Below, piece by piece: positions 18,206-24,522 of a stretch of 64,000 nucleotides of DNA. The translations under genes were made by a program, and so were the position numbers. Numbering within the stretch: the first letter of the stretch is position 1; every line of letters starts with the position of its first letter. The notes under the pieces were generated by a model that did not search any database, was not told the origin of the DNA, and worked only from the letters and a program-made list of their open reading frames with translations. Origin of the DNA: Aequitasia blattaphilus. Its GTDB lineage: Bacteria > Bacillota > Clostridia > Lachnospirales > Lachnospiraceae. The stretch spans positions 1 to 64,000 of the forward strand of contig NZ_JAMXOD010000009.1 in NCBI RefSeq assembly GCF_024721305.1, in the 5' to 3' direction.

Positions 18206-18886
18206 ATGCACTTAACTACAAGAGAACAGGAACGATTATTGTTGCATTATGCAGGTGAATTAGCAAAAGCAAGAAAGGATCGTGGTCTAAAGCTAAACTA
18301 TCCTGAAGCAATTGCTTACATAACCTCCGAATTGCTTGAATTAGCAAGGGATGGAAAAACGGTTACCGAGCTTATGCAATTAGGTAGAAAAATACTAAAA
18401 GATGATGATGTGATGGATGGTGTTGCAGAAATGATTCATGAAATACAGCTCGAAGCGACTTTTCCAGATGGGACAAAGCTTGTTACCGTTCATTCTCCTA
18501 TACAGGGAAATGAAAAAATTATCCCCGGTGAAATGATTTTTGATGAGGGTGAGCATGTTATTAATGAAGGGAAAACGACTGTCGAAATGTATGTTACAAA
18601 CACCGCAGATAGGCCAATACAAGTGGGTTCACACTACCATTTTTTTGAAGTAAATAAACAGCTTAAGTTTGAACGCTCAAAAGCATATGCAATGAGATTA
18701 GACATACCATCTGGTACGGCTGTACGATTTGAACCAGGTGAAACAAAGCTTATACGATTGGTTCAAATTGGGGGGAATAGATGTGGACACGGTTTAAATG
18801 ACCTAGTACAGGGCAGCTTTGATGATGATAATGTGAAAATAAAAGCACTCGAAAAAGCAATCAAGCTAGGATTTAAAGGAGATTAG
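18206..18886 (+). CDS. ureAB: Urease gamma-beta fusion subunit
   Basis: The 226-residue protein joins the urease gamma subunit (residues 1 to about 100, with [25 protein letters not shown]) to the beta subunit (about 105-215, with [17 protein letters not shown] and [11 protein letters not shown]). Separate genes are usual in Bacillus and Klebsiella; the fusion resembles Helicobacter UreA. It supplies the structural frame around the UreC active site for hydrolysis of urea to ammonia and carbamate. The ATG follows AAGGAG. UreC begins only four bases after its stop codon. Confidence 0.93.
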
Positions 18887-18890
18887 AACA

Positions 18891-20603
18891 ATGTTTAAAT
18901 TAAGTAGAAAGCAGTATGCTGACATGTACGGTGCAACAGTTGGCGATAGAATCCGACTTGCTGACACATCATTAATCATAGAAGTTGAAAAAGATTTGAC
19001 CGTAAAAGGTGATGAAGCTAAATTTGGTGGTGGTAAATCCCTTCGTGATGGAATGGGGCAATGTTCCACAATACCAGATGATAAATGCCCGGATACAGTT
19101 ATCACGAATGCGGTAATTGTTGACTATACGGGTATTATTAAAGGGGATGTCGGGTTGAAAAAAGGGAAAATTTGCGGAATTGGAAAAGCAGGTAATCCCG
19201 ATATAATGGATGGTGTATCCCCTGAATTAATTGTAGGTGCATCTACCGAAATAATTGCTGGTGAAGGTCTGCTATTAACTGCTGGCGGAATTGATACGCA
19301 TATTCATTTTATAAGTCCAACACAAATTGAAACAGCATTGTACTCAGGTATCACGACAATGATAGGAGGAGGAACGGGACCTGCCGATGGAACAAATGCG
19401 ACCACCTGTACTCCAGGTAAATTCAATTTGGAAAAGATGATAGAAGCGGCAGAGGCATATCCTATGAATCTTGGTTTTTTGGCCAAAGGAAACTGTGCAG
19501 ATATAAATGCACTTGCCGAACAAGTTGAGGCAGGTGCGTGTGGGCTCAAAATTCATGAGGATTGGGGGTCAACTCCTTCGGTAATTAACAAAGCATTAGA
19601 AACCGCAGATAAATACGATGTTCAGGTATCCATTCATACGGATACCTTAAATGAAGCTGGATTTGTGGAAGATACTCTAAATGCAATTGACAACCGAACA
19701 ATTCACACATACCATACAGAAGGTGCAGGTGGCGGTCATGCACCAGATATTATAAGAGCAGCAGCTTTTCCAAATATATTGCCCTCTTCCACAAATCCAA
19801 CAATGCCATTTACAATCAACACAGTCGATGAACATTTAGATATGCTTATGGTATGCCATCATTTGGACAATCGTGTTAAGGAAGATGTAGCCTTTGCAGA
19901 TTCAAGAATTCGTCCTGAAACGATAGCTGCGGAAGATATACTTCATGATATGGGTATTTTTTCGATGATGAGCAGCGATTCGCAAGCCATGGGTCGTGTG
20001 GGTGAGGTTATAACAAGAACGTGGCAAAGTGCTTCAAAGATGAAAACACAACGTGGAGTATTACTAGAGGACAATGAAAGAAACGATAATTTTCGAGTGA
20101 AACGCTATATCTCAAAATATACAATAAACCCTGCAATCACTCATGGCTTATCAAAATATATTGGATCAGTCGAACAGGGAAAGTATGCAGATTTGGTTTT
20201 ATGGAAACCAGCCATGTTTGGTGTTAAGCCAGAAATGATAATAAAAGGTGGAATGATTACTGCTTCGAAAATGGGAGATGCAAATGCATCTATTCCGACT
20301 CCGCAACCAATAGTGTACACAAAAATGTTTGGAGCATATGGCCTTGCAAGAAAAAGAAGCTGTATAACATTTACATCAAAAATAGCACATGAGCAGGGCA
20401 TAAAAGAACGGCTTGGACTTTCAAGAGTTGTGCTTCCTGTTGAAAATTGTCGTGACATTCGCAAGTCAGATATGAAATTTAATAATCGTTGCGGTGATAT
20501 ACAGGTGGATGCTGAAACATATAAGGTTACTGTAGATGGTGAGGAAATTATTTGTGAAGCGGCAACAGAATTACCACTTACTCAGAAATATTATCTGTTT
20601 TAA
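18891..20603 (+). CDS. ureC: Urease alpha (catalytic) subunit
   Basis: This 570-residue amidohydrolase has an intact nickel site: His137 and His139 in DTHIHF, the carbamylated Lys220 in GLKIHEDWG, and downstream histidines in SIHTDTLNE and [13 protein letters not shown]. The active-site flap is [22 protein letters not shown], with its catalytic His retained, followed by [13 protein letters not shown]. Nothing suggests loss of activity. It is cytoplasmic and needs UreDEFG for Ni(II) insertion; all four follow in the same operon. Confidence 0.97.
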
Positions 20604-20617
20604 GAAAGGATATATAA

Positions 20618-21055
20618 ATGATTATCGAGAAAATAATAGGCAGTATCGGTGATACGAATAAAAAAATAGATTATGTAAATGTCGAATGGTTTGAAAGAGA
20701 TAAACGTCTTTTAAAAAAAGTATCAGAAGAAGGCGTTGAGATAGGACTTCGTTTACACAAGCCACTTAATGATGGTGATATTTTGTTTGAAGATGACGAA
20801 AAAATCATTGCAGTACAGCTTACTCCAACGGAATTAATCAAGATTAGGATTAATGACATTAAGGAAATGGGCAGAGCTTGTTTTGAAATTGGTAACCGCC
20901 ATATTTCTCCAGCTATTGAAGCTGATTGCGTAAAGATACCTTTTGATGAACCGACTCTGGCATATTTAATAAAATTGGGATTTTCGGCAGAAAAAGTGAT
21001 AGAGAAGTTTGTTGGATTTATTGAGTGTCAAGGGCATTCCCATCACCATGAATAA
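20618..21055 (+). CDS. ureE: Urease accessory protein UreE (nickel chaperone)
   Basis: This 145-residue protein has the UreE N-terminal peptide-binding part (RLHKPLNDGDILFEDDEKIIAVQ) and the metal-binding C-domain with the conserved GNRHISPAIE. The C-terminus ends in a short histidine tail, HSHHHE, likely to bind nickel; it is much shorter than the tail of Klebsiella UreE. It delivers Ni(II) to the UreDFG-apourease complex. It overlaps ureF by eight bases. Confidence 0.9.
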   Translation: MIIEKIIGSIGDTNKKIDYVNVEWFERDKRLLKKVSEEGVEIGLRLHKPLNDGDILFEDDEKIIAVQLTPTELIKIRINDIKEMGRACFEIGNRHISPAIEADCVKIPFDEPTLAYLIKLGFSAEKVIEKFVGFIECQGHSHHHE

Positions 21056-21716
21056 TCAAAATATTTTAAAACTTGTGCAGACCCTTGACCCTCTATTTCC
21101 TATTGGCGGATACACGCTATCAAATGGAATGGAAACTTATGTTCAAAAGGGAATAGTGTATGACTATAAAACCCTCGCCGCATATCTTGATTCGTATTTG
21201 TATATGCTGTCCTTTAATGACCTTGCATTTGCTGCAAAAGCATATGAAGTTGAGGATATTGCTAAGTTGGATTTACTATGTTCTTCTTTAAAAGCACCGA
21301 TTGAAATACGCCAAGGCAGTATCAAGCAATGTTCACGTTTTTTAAAATTGCATACCAAAATGAATTCATATCCAAGATTAATTCAATATCAAAATCAGAT
21401 TAAAAATGGGGAATGTGAAGGACATTATGGGATTTCGATGGGACTGTTTATAAAGGAGCTTAATATTAATCTCCAAGAGGCTTTGGAGTTATATTGTTAC
21501 AGTTTAATATCTACGGCTGTAAACCATGCTGTTAAAATGGTGCCTCTAAGGCAGCTTGACGGACAGATAGCCATTTATGAATTGATGGAGCATATCCCAA
21601 AAGCAGTCACAACTGCAATTAACACAAAAATGATGGATTTGGGTGCTTCAGGTTGTGGATTTGATATCCGGTCAATGCAACATGAAACATTATATACCAG
21701 GCTATATATTTCTTAA
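21048..21716 (+). CDS. ureF: Urease accessory protein UreF
   Basis: This 222-residue helical protein contains QTLDPLFPIGGYTLSNGMETYV, the conserved UreF N-terminus, and ends near SMQHETLYTRLYIS, typical of the family. UreF bridges UreD and UreG and gates nickel transfer. The ATG at 21048 overlaps the ureE stop and gives the standard N-terminus; an upstream TTG at 21009 is rejected. There is no clear ribosome site, so coupling to ureE is likely. Confidence 0.9.
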   Translation: MNNQNILKLVQTLDPLFPIGGYTLSNGMETYVQKGIVYDYKTLAAYLDSYLYMLSFNDLAFAAKAYEVEDIAKLDLLCSSLKAPIEIRQGSIKQCSRFLKLHTKMNSYPRLIQYQNQIKNGECEGHYGISMGLFIKELNINLQEALELYCYSLISTAVNHAVKMVPLRQLDGQIAIYELMEHIPKAVTTAINTKMMDLGASGCGFDIRSMQHETLYTRLYIS

Positions 21717-21751
21717 TCAAATTTTGAACCAAGAAAGGAATGAATATAAAT

Positions 21752-22360
21752 ATGAGCTATATAAAAATTGGTGTCGGGGGGCCAGTAGGTTCAGGGAAAA
21801 CGGCTTTGATCGAAAGATTGACCCGAAAAATATCAGATGAATATAGTATTTGTGTTGTAACAAATGACATATATACAAAAGAGGATGCGGAGTTCCTTAT
21901 CAAAAATTCCAAACTGGATTCAGAAAGAATTGTAGGTGTGGAAACAGGAGGTTGTCCGCATACTGCTATACGAGAGGACTGCTCAATGAATCTGGAAGCC
22001 GTTGAAGAAATGGCAGCAAAGTTTCCAGATGTGCAGATTATCTTTATTGAAAGTGGTGGTGATAATCTAAGTGCAACCTTTTCACCAGATCTTGCGGATG
22101 CCTCTATTTATGTCATTGATGTGGCACAAGGCGAAAAAATCCCCAGAAAGGGTGGTCCAGGAGTTACACGTTCAGATTTGTTAGTGATTAACAAAACGGA
22201 TCTTGCAACTATGGTTGGTGCAGATTTATCAATCATGGAAAGTGATTCAAAGAGAATGCGTGGCGAAAGACCATTCTTGTTTACAAACTTGATAAGTATG
22301 GATGGTGTAGATGAGGTAATTGAATGGATAAAAAAATCTGTTCTATTTGAGGGGTTATAA
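21752..22360 (+). CDS. ureG: Urease accessory GTPase UreG
   Basis: This 202-residue SIMIBI GTPase has the P-loop GGPVGSGKT, then [13 protein letters not shown], the Cys-Pro-His nickel motif in [30 protein letters not shown] and the guanine-binding NKTD. GTP hydrolysis drives nickel insertion into urease. The ATG at 21752 is preferred over 21740 because the AAGAAAGG upstream is too close to the first ATG. It ends one base before the ureD start. Confidence 0.95.
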
Positions 22361-22361
22361 T

Positions 22362-23105
22362 ATGGGGAAATTGCGTATTGAAGCTCATGTACATAATGGA
22401 AGAACAGTTATCACAGATTGCTTTTTTACCGCTCCATTTAAGATTGTAAAACCGTATTATGACAAGAATCGAGCAGAAGTTATGATTATGCAAGCATCAG
22501 CAGGGATTTTAGAAGGCGATAAATACGAGGTGGAAATAGTTGTAAAATCAGGTGCTTCCTTGATGGTAACAGGGCAATCATATACAAAGCTGTTTAAGAT
22601 GGATAGTGGCTATGCAACGCAAAATGTAAAAATCACAGTAGAGAGTGGAGCATCATTGTTTTACTTGCCTTGTCCAATTATTCCTTTTGGTGGAAGTAGT
22701 TTTGTAAGCGAAAATGAAATACATCTTCAAAAAGGTTCGGAATTTATTATGCAGGACATTTTGGCATGTGGCAGAAAAGGTATGGGTGAGGAATTTAAGT
22801 TTCGAAAATATCATTCACGAGTGGTTGTATATGAAAATGAAAGGCTGATTTTTGTAGACAATACCCGGTTGATACCCAAAGAATATGAATATCACAAAAT
22901 GGGATATTTTGAAGGCTGTTCGCATCAAGGTGTGGCATATTTCTATGGACGAAAACAAATAAAATCCATTAATAAGAGCGAAAGCATTACGGCAGCAATC
23001 ACAAATCTGCGAAAGGGTCAGATTTTGCGCATTCTTTCCGATAGTGGTGATCGAATAGTAAACTATATAAAAACATATGTAGAGGAGGAGAACGATGGGA
23101 CATAA
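22362..23105 (+). CDS. ureD: Urease accessory protein UreD (UreH)
   Basis: This 247-residue beta-rich scaffold protein shows family motifs AGILEGDKYEVEIVVKSGASLMVTGQSYTK and LPCPIIPFGGSSFVSENEI. UreD binds apourease and recruits UreF and UreG. Placing ureD last, after ureG, is the order seen in many clostridia and streptococci. The ATG follows GAGGGG. Its end overlaps the next gene by 11 bases, so that kinase-like gene is part of the same operon. Confidence 0.9.
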   Translation: MGKLRIEAHVHNGRTVITDCFFTAPFKIVKPYYDKNRAEVMIMQASAGILEGDKYEVEIVVKSGASLMVTGQSYTKLFKMDSGYATQNVKITVESGASLFYLPCPIIPFGGSSFVSENEIHLQKGSEFIMQDILACGRKGMGEEFKFRKYHSRVVVYENERLIFVDNTRLIPKEYEYHKMGYFEGCSHQGVAYFYGRKQIKSINKSESITAAITNLRKGQILRILSDSGDRIVNYIKTYVEEENDGT

Positions 23106-23709
23106 AATTATCACGGTAACCCGGCAATTTGGCAGTCTTGGTAGAAAAATTGCAAAATCAGTTGCGGACGAATTAGGATATGAATATTATGACCGTGACA
23201 TAATAGAATATTCAATTAAGGAGATGCGTGGTGATATCGAAAAACTTGCTGCATTTGATCAAACACTGTCATCACCATTTGAAAGAATGATGTATCCATT
23301 GGGAAGAGGCAATGCAGCAATGAAAAAGGCTTTGTTTGAGATGGAAAAAAGCATAATGGTTGATCTTGCAACAAGAAATAATTGTGTTATTGTAGGACGT
23401 TGCTCGGATTTTGTGTTAAGACAATATGGAATACCTGAAGAGGATATGCTTAATGTATTTATATATTCACCAATCGATAAACGACTTTTGAATTGTAAAG
23501 ATGAATTAGATATAGATAATCCAGGTAAGGCGTATACATATCTAACCAAGGTAGACAAAGCACGTGAGGATTTCTACAAGCATTACACAAAACATAAATT
23601 CACATCAACGAGATTTCGCCATCTAATGATTGATAGTTCCATAGCAGACTTTGATAAGGTAGCTAAGTCTATAAGTGATACAGCGAGGATTAAGTTTGGA
23701 ATTTGCTAA
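23095..23709 (+). CDS. Cytidylate kinase-like protein in the urease operon
   Basis: This 204-residue protein of the cytidylate-kinase-like P-loop family starts with ITVTRQFGSLGRKIAKSVADELGYEYYDRDII. The P-loop is altered to QFGSLGRKIAK rather than GxxGxGKS, as in this group. A NNCVIVGRCSDFVL strand and a lid region with KVDKAREDFYKHYTKHKF follow. These proteins are widespread in clostridia but their substrate is not established. Overlap with ureD (11 bases) ties it to urease expression, yet no known urease needs a kinase. Confidence 0.83.
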   Translation: MGHKIITVTRQFGSLGRKIAKSVADELGYEYYDRDIIEYSIKEMRGDIEKLAAFDQTLSSPFERMMYPLGRGNAAMKKALFEMEKSIMVDLATRNNCVIVGRCSDFVLRQYGIPEEDMLNVFIYSPIDKRLLNCKDELDIDNPGKAYTYLTKVDKAREDFYKHYTKHKFTSTRFRHLMIDSSIADFDKVAKSISDTARIKFGIC

Positions 23710-23744
23710 TTAGTAAATGTAAAAATAATGAGGAGGAAATTATT

Positions 23745-24152
23745 ATGGGATGTTTTATAGCTCCAGCTGCTGAGGCGGTTGTAACGACAATTGTAAAGAA
23801 AAGATTAGACTTCAAAGAGGTAGGAGAAGATGGTGAAATAAAGATAGAGTGCAAATCGAAAAACATGTTTTTAAGAAGGCTTAATTGGCTTAATACAATG
23901 CTTTGGGGTGGTAGTGCTTTATTAGCCTTTGAACATGTTTGGCATGGGGAGGTAGTTCCATGGTTTCCATTTTTGACAGCGATATCAAATCCAACAGACA
24001 CGGCACAAATGCTTGCCGAAATGTCAACGGTAGGCGTATCTATGTCGGTGTTTGTAACTGCCGTATGGGCAGGAGTTGTTCTTGTCACCAATTCTATTGA
24101 AAAAGCACCTATGAGTAATATACGTGTGGCCGAAGGAGGTGCTAGAAAATGA
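23745..24152 (+). CDS. Unknown membrane protein in urease operon (135 aa)
   Basis: I do not recognise this family. After a cytoplasmic N-terminus of about 45 residues with charged strands (RLDFKEVGEDGEIKIECKSK) there are two hydrophobic segments, about 47-63 (TMLWGGSALLAFEHVWHG) and 92-112 (VGVSMSVFVTAVWAGVVLVTNSI). A His/Trp-rich extracytoplasmic loop, EHVWHGEVVPWFPFL, lies between them. A strong AGGAGG precedes the ATG at 23745. It overlaps the following small membrane gene by four bases (ATGA), so the two are probably partners. A metal- or substrate-handling role is only a guess. Confidence 0.7.
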   Translation: MGCFIAPAAEAVVTTIVKKRLDFKEVGEDGEIKIECKSKNMFLRRLNWLNTMLWGGSALLAFEHVWHGEVVPWFPFLTAISNPTDTAQMLAEMSTVGVSMSVFVTAVWAGVVLVTNSIEKAPMSNIRVAEGGARK

Positions 24153-24451
24153 CATTATTAATCACGGTTTTTGCATCGATTATATCTACAATTCTTTGGT
24201 ATATAAATTCAGAAAGAAATGATCTGAGGCTTGGTACACTTTCTCTTATGTATTGGGGTGCAGCACTTATGTGGTTTGTTGATGCAATATTTGAATATGT
24301 GGAAATGGGAGAAGAATTCTTCACACCACCATCATCAGATATGCTCAATGATGGGTATCTTGGACTATCGGTGGTGGCATTAGGACTTATGATTTGGTTG
24401 GTGATAGTAATCACAAAGTCAAGCATTTTGAAACAATCCTTAAATAAGTGA
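24149..24451 (+). CDS. Unknown membrane protein in urease operon (100 aa)
   Basis: I do not recognise this family. The protein has three hydrophobic segments, about 1-19, 32-48 and 75-93. The loop between the second and third is acidic and aromatic (DAIFEYVEMGEEFFTPPSSDMLND), and the tail is short and basic. It overlaps the 135-residue membrane gene by four bases and is the last gene before the operon terminator. The tight coupling suggests a two-component membrane complex made with urease. No catalytic motif is visible. Confidence 0.7.
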   Translation: MTLLITVFASIISTILWYINSERNDLRLGTLSLMYWGAALMWFVDAIFEYVEMGEEFFTPPSSDMLNDGYLGLSVVALGLMIWLVIVITKSSILKQSLNK

Positions 24452-24482: not shown

Positions 24483-24522
24483 GAGAAGAGTTTTATTCAA
24501 TTAAAATTCTTCTCTTTTTTTT
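24483..24522 (+). terminator. Terminator of the urea/urease operon
   Basis: GAGAAGAGTTTTA pairs with TAAAATTCTTCTC over 13 positions (one G-U) with a six-base loop and is followed by eight T residues. It closes the roughly 11-kb unit that begins at 13266. Confidence 0.92.

Follow-up and report, generated by a model that had tools for sequence, protein, structure and literature searches.

A pair of small membrane protein genes at the end of a clostridial urease operon belongs to an undescribed family that occupies the importer position of nickel-pincer nucleotide operons

Results

The DNA considered here is a 64,000-nucleotide window, the whole stretch analysed, from Aequitasia blattaphilus (Lachnospiraceae), in which a urease operon ends in two small membrane protein genes that we call TM1 and TM2. 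The urease genes, which make this operon a nickel user, lie on the forward strand at 18206..23105 in the order ureAB (a fused gamma/beta gene), ureC, ureE, ureF, ureG and ureD; ureAB, ureC, ureF and ureD are named by family models, while ureE and ureG are assigned from their position and known features. By open reading frame calls the end of ureD at 23105 overlaps by 11 nucleotides a gene for a cytidylate-kinase-like protein of 204 residues (23095..23709, forward strand), and thirty-five bases separate that gene from TM1 (23745..24152, 135 residues), which shares four nucleotides, a common ATGA, with TM2 (24149..24451, 100 residues), both on the same strand. Downstream of TM2 stands an intrinsic-terminator-like element (24483..24522, forward strand), a hairpin of 13 pairs at 24483-24514 followed by a T tract. 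A first-pass annotation, made from the letters of the window, had described this arrangement of overlapping frames, two membrane proteins and a terminator, and the open reading frame calls and the hairpin confirm it. Its statement that the operon encodes no nickel transporter holds for the known families tested. A urea ATP-binding cassette (ABC) transporter is encoded in the operon, with UrtB above its NCBIfam cut-off and the other Urt genes assigned by position.

A single scan of GTDB species genomes returned 312 relatives of TM1, confirmed by tblastn, and the counts given below for 80 loci refer to the best, that is the closest, 80 of them. L-numbers denote the loci fetched and G-numbers the genomes of the window's taxonomic family, G000 being the window's own. 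The hosts are mostly gut and rumen Clostridia. TM2 adjoins TM1 in 79 of the 80 loci, with TM1 standing alone in the eightieth (L031), and the pair is an undescribed two-gene family. TM1 occurs in 40 of 299 genomes of the taxonomic family, and its profile matches 10 genomes in a phylum-wide set of 398, a distribution that is patchy but crosses families; G077, from the same genus as the window, has none of TM1, urease and LarC.

The first-pass annotation had grouped the kinase-like gene, TM1 and TM2 within the urease operon and had named their occurrence mostly away from urease in other genomes as its refutation, and as regards urease this is what the wider comparison found. Of the 299 family genomes, 155 match urease alpha at E≤0.001 and 21 of these are over its cut-off; the weaker matches were not counted as urease. 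TM1 and urease meet only in G000, one of the 40 genomes with TM1 and one of the 21 with urease, and the stretches around 20 other ureases, some limited by contig ends, contain no match to TM1, TM2 or the window's kinase. We therefore rejected a urease-specific role for the pair, and the linkage seen here looks like one recruitment.

The genes that usually accompany TM1 are also nickel genes, and the nickel reading thus survives the loss of the urease link. Among the commonest neighbour families are three clusters whose representatives score above the curated NCBIfam cut-offs as LarC, LarB and LarE, proteins of nickel-pincer nucleotide (NPN) synthesis in which, according to PMC7583248, LarC inserts the nickel. 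When profiles built from those same neighbour clusters were used for counting, 53 of the 80 loci had at least one lar gene in the orientation of TM1 and no more than 6 kilobases (kb) from it, LarC being present in 48, LarB in 47 and LarE in 27; in the window the neighbouring nickel genes are those of urease. The orders TM1-TM2-LarB-LarC, LarE-TM1-TM2-LarB-LarC, LarC-TM1-TM2 and TM1-TM2-LarE-LarB all occur, which suggests linkage by function and not one inherited block. In the family sample TM1 is lar-linked in at least 14 of 40 genomes, among the LarC places listed, and LarC is present in 35 of the 40 genomes with TM1 versus 148 of the 259 without it (p = 1.8e-4). LarA, at E<1e-30, was found in one of the 40 TM1 genomes versus 9 of 40 controls; LarC often occurs without LarA (80 family genomes). 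An ArsP_1-type permease follows TM2 or LarE at L031, L043, L044 and L050, by a PF03773 match in L044 and by resemblance in the other three. Single cases among the loci without lar genes include HypA on the other strand at L058, a metal-sensing repressor (PF02583) at L078 and the S components of energy-coupling factor (ECF) transporters at L043 and L082.

Known importers and the pair largely replace one another beside these genes. As a comparison without TM1 we took 60 larC loci of the 148 LarC-positive genomes lacking TM1, chosen from listed places and not at random. In 18 of the 60 a permease of the CbiM or Nik/Opp type is found no more than 7 kb from larC (Nik-type 13, CbiM 5), and 42 have no CbiM or Nik-type importer nearby. 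Among the 53 lar-linked TM1 loci none has such a permease within 9 kb (p = 2.9e-6), the loci without TM1 coming from one family and those with it from GTDB at large. Restriction to loci with 5 kb on both sides leaves the importer in 16 of 43 loci without TM1 versus none of 33 with it (p = 2.9e-5). At the level of genomes, full-length CbiM (E<1e-50, a threshold of our own setting) occurs in two of 35 genomes with LarC and TM1 versus 12 of 22 LarC-positive controls without TM1 (p = 5e-5) and, regardless of LarC, in 4 of 40 versus 15 of 40 (p = 0.0075). The gene order at L174 is DUF3842-CbiM-CbiQ-CbiO-LarB-LarC-LarE (CbiQ by eye), and several TM1 loci read DUF3842-TM1-TM2-LarB-LarC-LarE, with the pair at the place of CbiMQO. 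TM1-TM2 fills the importer slot in lar operons, and nickel is what these settings have in common. The Nik-type proteins tested score under the NCBIfam nickel cut-offs, so that for them, too, nickel is a role that we infer. A decayed relic of TM2 lies just upstream of larE at L181:4719-4838 in G265, a genome without TM1.

Upstream of TM1 we found a leader RNA composed of two hairpins with (A)NGAA loops, a spacer and a terminator whose 5' arm can, judged by eye, pair alternatively with an upstream segment. A model, R1, built from 20 leaders, finds it at E<1e-4 in 33 of the 80 loci (L034:7449-7560 and 32 others), 20 of which trained the model; it ends 21-166 nucleotides before TM1, and at the same threshold R1 has no match elsewhere in 1.29 Mb, the window included. 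In an alignment of 42 leaders that was fitted to the structure, 96.2% of cells pair and 17 of 22 pairs have both partners exchanged in at least one sequence; the covariation score was reached by none of 500 shuffles, and slid controls were 44-67% paired. The first hairpin, which lies outside R1, has at least 5 pairs in 34 of the 42 (shuffled mean 5.9, maximum 12). Rfam at gathering thresholds, searched over 25 TM1 loci, placed no family at the leader in the 14 that bear one, its matches being tRNAs, the flavin mononucleotide (FMN) riboswitch, the thiamine pyrophosphate (TPP) riboswitch and drum RNA, all away from the leader; one leader searched at E≤1 gave no match.

The leader is not confined to TM1. 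Across the 299 family genomes R1 at E≤0.001 marks 17 places in 16 genomes, a lower bound given strict filters, with several near-threshold places individually marginal. Five precede TM1, and 11 of the other 12 precede importers, lar genes or both: LarB-CbiM-CbiQ-CbiO (two), CbiM, Nik/Opp ABC systems (two), LarE-LarB-LarC with Nik-type genes, LarB followed by a FecCD-like system, FecCD systems (two) and ECF S components (two). The weakest place, in G214, has no importer or lar gene. For these 12 places ten proteins were checked against Pfam and six against NCBIfam, the other genes being named by eye; examples of the leader are L200:8267-8396 (reverse strand) and L241-L250, and at L179 it stands before LarE-LarB-LarC-CbiM. 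Something other than nickel could be the substrate of the FecCD and ECF sets. The leader thus marks importers and nickel-cofactor genes, and TM1-TM2 stands under it at the importers' place.

The leader is accompanied by DUF3842 (PF12953), which is encoded in all 16 leader genomes tested (G214 outside the set) versus 10 of 44 hand-picked genomes without a detected leader (p = 3.6e-8). Nearby DUF3842 genes occur at 24 TM1 loci, 23 of which carry the leader, and the gene lies upstream of the leader at L063:145-561 and also at L248, L250 and L243. Leader and DUF3842 together look like a new nickel regulon in which DUF3842 is a candidate regulator. The open-licence literature that we searched contains no mention of DUF3842, and what it holds on nickel riboswitches, importers, attenuation and NPN includes nothing on TM1-TM2 or the leader.

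Neither protein of the window matches a Pfam or NCBIfam family at E≤1, which in Pfam includes the CbiM (PF01891) and NicO (PF03824) domains, and the weak Pfam matches of their relatives (best E 0.0073 and 0.01) were discarded as noise. With 55-row profiles, sequence searches of the PDB found no match to TM1, and the two returned for TM2 are at chance level (E 0.66 and 0.67). The His- and Trp-rich loop of TM1 to which the first-pass annotation had drawn attention is real, and it is the most conserved part of the protein: the segment EHVWHGEVVPWFPF (residues 63-76, 23931..23972, forward strand) contains the core EHxWHGE, which every one of the 110 extracted TM1 proteins has (the window's own and those of 109 relatives); the longer EHxWHGEVxPWFPF is found in 92 of the 110 and a start of M-A/G-C in 109. 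Such conservation of the core excludes chance open reading frames. In the non-redundant 55-row alignment Cys3, Glu10, Glu63, His64, Trp66, His67, Gly68, Glu69, Val70 and Pro72-Phe76 are invariant, and the conserved residues of TM2 include Trp17, Tyr18, Trp36, Gly37, Met41, Trp42, Asp45, Phe58 and Asp68. From this alignment, residues 63-76 of TM1 are a candidate metal site.

The TM2 model, which is confident (predicted local distance difference test score, pLDDT, 93.2; predicted template modelling score, pTM, 0.81), has three long helices at 2-19, 28-58 and 62-90, and no match stood out when it was compared with the PDB. TM1 is modelled at low confidence (pLDDT 74.5, pTM 0.43) with helices at 5-25, 37-66, 73-78 and 83-120, and at that lower confidence the order of its long helices resembles that of TM2. 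A profile comparison of the two gives P = 1.1e-4 but a probability of only 57%, and MAFFT aligns the two with each other along most of their length. L028 encodes a natural single protein, TM1 followed by a TM2-like hairpin (the resemblance of the second half was judged by eye); MAFFT put the TM2 rows on its TM1 half, which hints at paralogy. TM1 and TM2 are probable paralogues.

The window's own genome, 97.5% complete, has no match to the leader, DUF3842, LarA or LarC and no LarB over cut-off, so that the arrangement of its relatives, with the leader upstream of the pair and lar genes downstream, is not seen here. Its only CbiM is part of a CbiMNQO set inside a cobalamin (B12) cluster, identified by eye, and for that reason is probably for cobalt. 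In a search that did not extend to UreH, HupE and FecCD, G000 had no NicO match and no NikB over cut-off. The window's pair groups with the lar-linked pair of L006 (support 0.90), inside a mixed clade; most simply, the urease operon would have recruited a nickel importer from lar operons.

Elsewhere in the window, Rfam reports a 5_ureB_sRNA match at 19041-19335 on the reverse strand (75.5 bits), antisense to ureC, which may be only a reflection of conserved urease coding sequence. In the urease relative L151 (G088) a UreI-like small membrane protein gene lies, by eye, upstream of the urease genes.

Discussion

We are confident, short of certainty, that TM1-TM2 belongs to nickel supply, and we think it somewhat more probable than otherwise that the pair is itself the importer. 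Nickel entry was one of several roles offered in the first-pass annotation and is the one that gained ground, through the lar linkage, the exclusion of known importers and the shared leader RNA; the urea or ammonia channel and the sensor found no support. The fullest version of this proposal, in which a new importer family of two paralogous three-helix proteins without an ATPase belongs to an undescribed nickel regulon governed by a new leader RNA, with DUF3842 as a nickel- or NPN-sensing RNA-binding regulator, is one that we put forward tentatively, judging it on the whole less probable than not.

Hypothetically, TM1 and TM2 would bind one another in a small membrane complex that would bring nickel into the cell, probably as a pseudo-symmetric heterodimer in which both subunits are related three-helix proteins. 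The ion might pass through the interface of the two subunits, where His64, His67 and Glu69 of TM1 and Asp45 of TM2 are the likely ligands. As no energy source is encoded alongside, the complex may be a channel, a secondary transporter or dependent on a partner encoded elsewhere. In many relatives the nickel would go to LarC for the synthesis of NPN, while in the window's genome the pair, once recruited to the urease operon's end, would deliver it to the proteins of urease maturation.

Several known systems share features with the pair. CbiMQO/NikMQO (ECF-type; PF01891 CbiM, PF02361 CbiQ) occupies the same lar-operon slot at L174, stands under the same leader at L246, L248 and L250, and at L151 is represented by a CbiM-type gene (by eye, with a phmmer match for CbiM) that starts 15 nucleotides after ureD, just as the kinase-like gene and the pair follow ureD in the window. 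TM1-TM2, however, lacks a CbiM domain, is not accompanied by an ATPase or CbiQ, and largely excludes CbiM from LarC-positive genomes. NikABCDE/Opp-type importers also adjoin lar genes and follow the same leader (L242, L243, L200), but they are multi-component ABC systems, whereas the pair consists of two small membrane proteins. Sets of FecCD, ATPase and binding protein, the type to which we take NiuBDE to belong, lie under the leader at L245 and L247. NiuBDE, described in PMC5140060 as a nickel ABC importer of Helicobacter pylori, is unrelated to the pair in sequence and architecture. The placement of a nickel permease gene beside nickel-enzyme genes is shared with UreH, HupE/UreJ and NiCoT, secondary permeases whose function, in PMC2667541, was predicted from such neighbourhoods; unlike NiCoT, the window's TM1 and TM2 have no Pfam match to NicO or to any permease family at E≤1. 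The leader resembles known Rfam riboswitches in having an exchangeable terminator before metal genes, yet no Rfam family matches it. A nickel importer, LarMNQO, reportedly belongs to the lar locus of Lactobacillus plantarum, and the open-licence literature searched does not mention it.

The strongest competitor to import is that the pair belongs to the nickel or NPN regulon without being a transporter, acting instead as a metallochaperone in the membrane, as a scaffold for assembly or as an NPN-using membrane enzyme. Most TM1 genomes have LarC without LarA, so that a user of NPN is not evident, and Cys3 together with EHxWHGE could form an active site; no energising component accompanies the pair. 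However, the pair alternates with importers, and five TM1 genomes, the window's included, have neither LarC nor LarB over cut-off (two are incomplete assemblies, G146 at just 68% and G279 at 85%), as if NPN were not needed there. On the latter ground the NPN-enzyme form is disfavoured though kept as a rival, and we consider a non-transporter role as a whole unlikely. Handling of another metal (zinc, cobalt or iron), or of metals generally, with the lar linkage reflecting a broad metal regulon, seems less likely still. Fur- and ZnuA-like genes at L009, a ZIP-like gene at L010 and FeoAB-like genes at L088 (all by eye), as well as the metal-sensing repressor at L078, would fit it; but these contexts are single cases, L009 has LarC too, and the recurrent partners, LarB, LarC and LarE, like the urease here, are nickel users.

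Two further alternatives arise from the window itself. The cytidylate-kinase-like identity of the gene before TM1, as first annotated, is firm (PF13189 Cytidylate_kin2, E 5.6e-43, 147.6 bits against a gathering cut-off of 28), and the gene might be tied functionally to the pair or to nickel, for example through cytidine triphosphate (CTP), which LarC uses. A second PF13189 gene lies directly 5' of TM1-TM2-LarB-LarC at L008:816-1454 (G165), yet this is the one other scanned locus in which a kinase adjoins TM1, in a single-sequence search that could miss divergent kinases; moreover, the window's genome lacks LarC and no urease relative carries the kinase. The three genes thus do not form the group that had been proposed, the idea of one module was rejected, and the kinase-like gene is probably a passenger, incidental to the pair, with a functional tie being highly improbable. 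The position in the urease operon could also be taken to favour a channel for urea or ammonia, or a sensor specific to urease. With 39 of the 40 TM1 genomes having no urease over cut-off, the pair absent around 20 other ureases and a urea ABC transporter already in the operon, we regard this as refuted as a general role and give it next to no credence.

The proposal that TM1-TM2 imports nickel also has to contend with several observations that weigh against it. Neither protein has a homologue of known function, and no ATPase or other energising gene recurs beside the pair. Twenty-seven of the 80 loci have no lar gene within 6 kb, some being limited by contig ends, and the neighbours of many of these are seemingly unrelated; in three of the 27 (L040, L064 and L080) a CbiM or Nik-type gene lies no more than 9 kb away. 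LarC is missing from 5 of the 40 TM1 genomes, and the scarcity of LarA in TM1 genomes leaves the enzyme that the pair would serve not evident. Full-length CbiM persists in the two TM1 genomes with LarC mentioned above, and the window's genome, too, carries CbiM. That genome is the only one to combine TM1 with urease, R1 finds no leader in the window or elsewhere in it, and its two NikB-like matches, under cut-off at 160 and 28 bits versus 447, together with the families left out of the search, make another nickel route possible. Finally, the co-occurrence and exclusion statistics ignore shared ancestry.

Gut anaerobes live with scarce nickel, and 33 of the 35 genomes with both LarC and TM1 have no full-length CbiM. 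If our proposal is true, a new importer family would help to explain the nickel supply of urease and the nickel-pincer cofactor in many Clostridia, and its genes could mark nickel use in metagenomes. A candidate that can be put to the test is control of uptake through the leader RNA and DUF3842, in response to nickel or to the cofactor.

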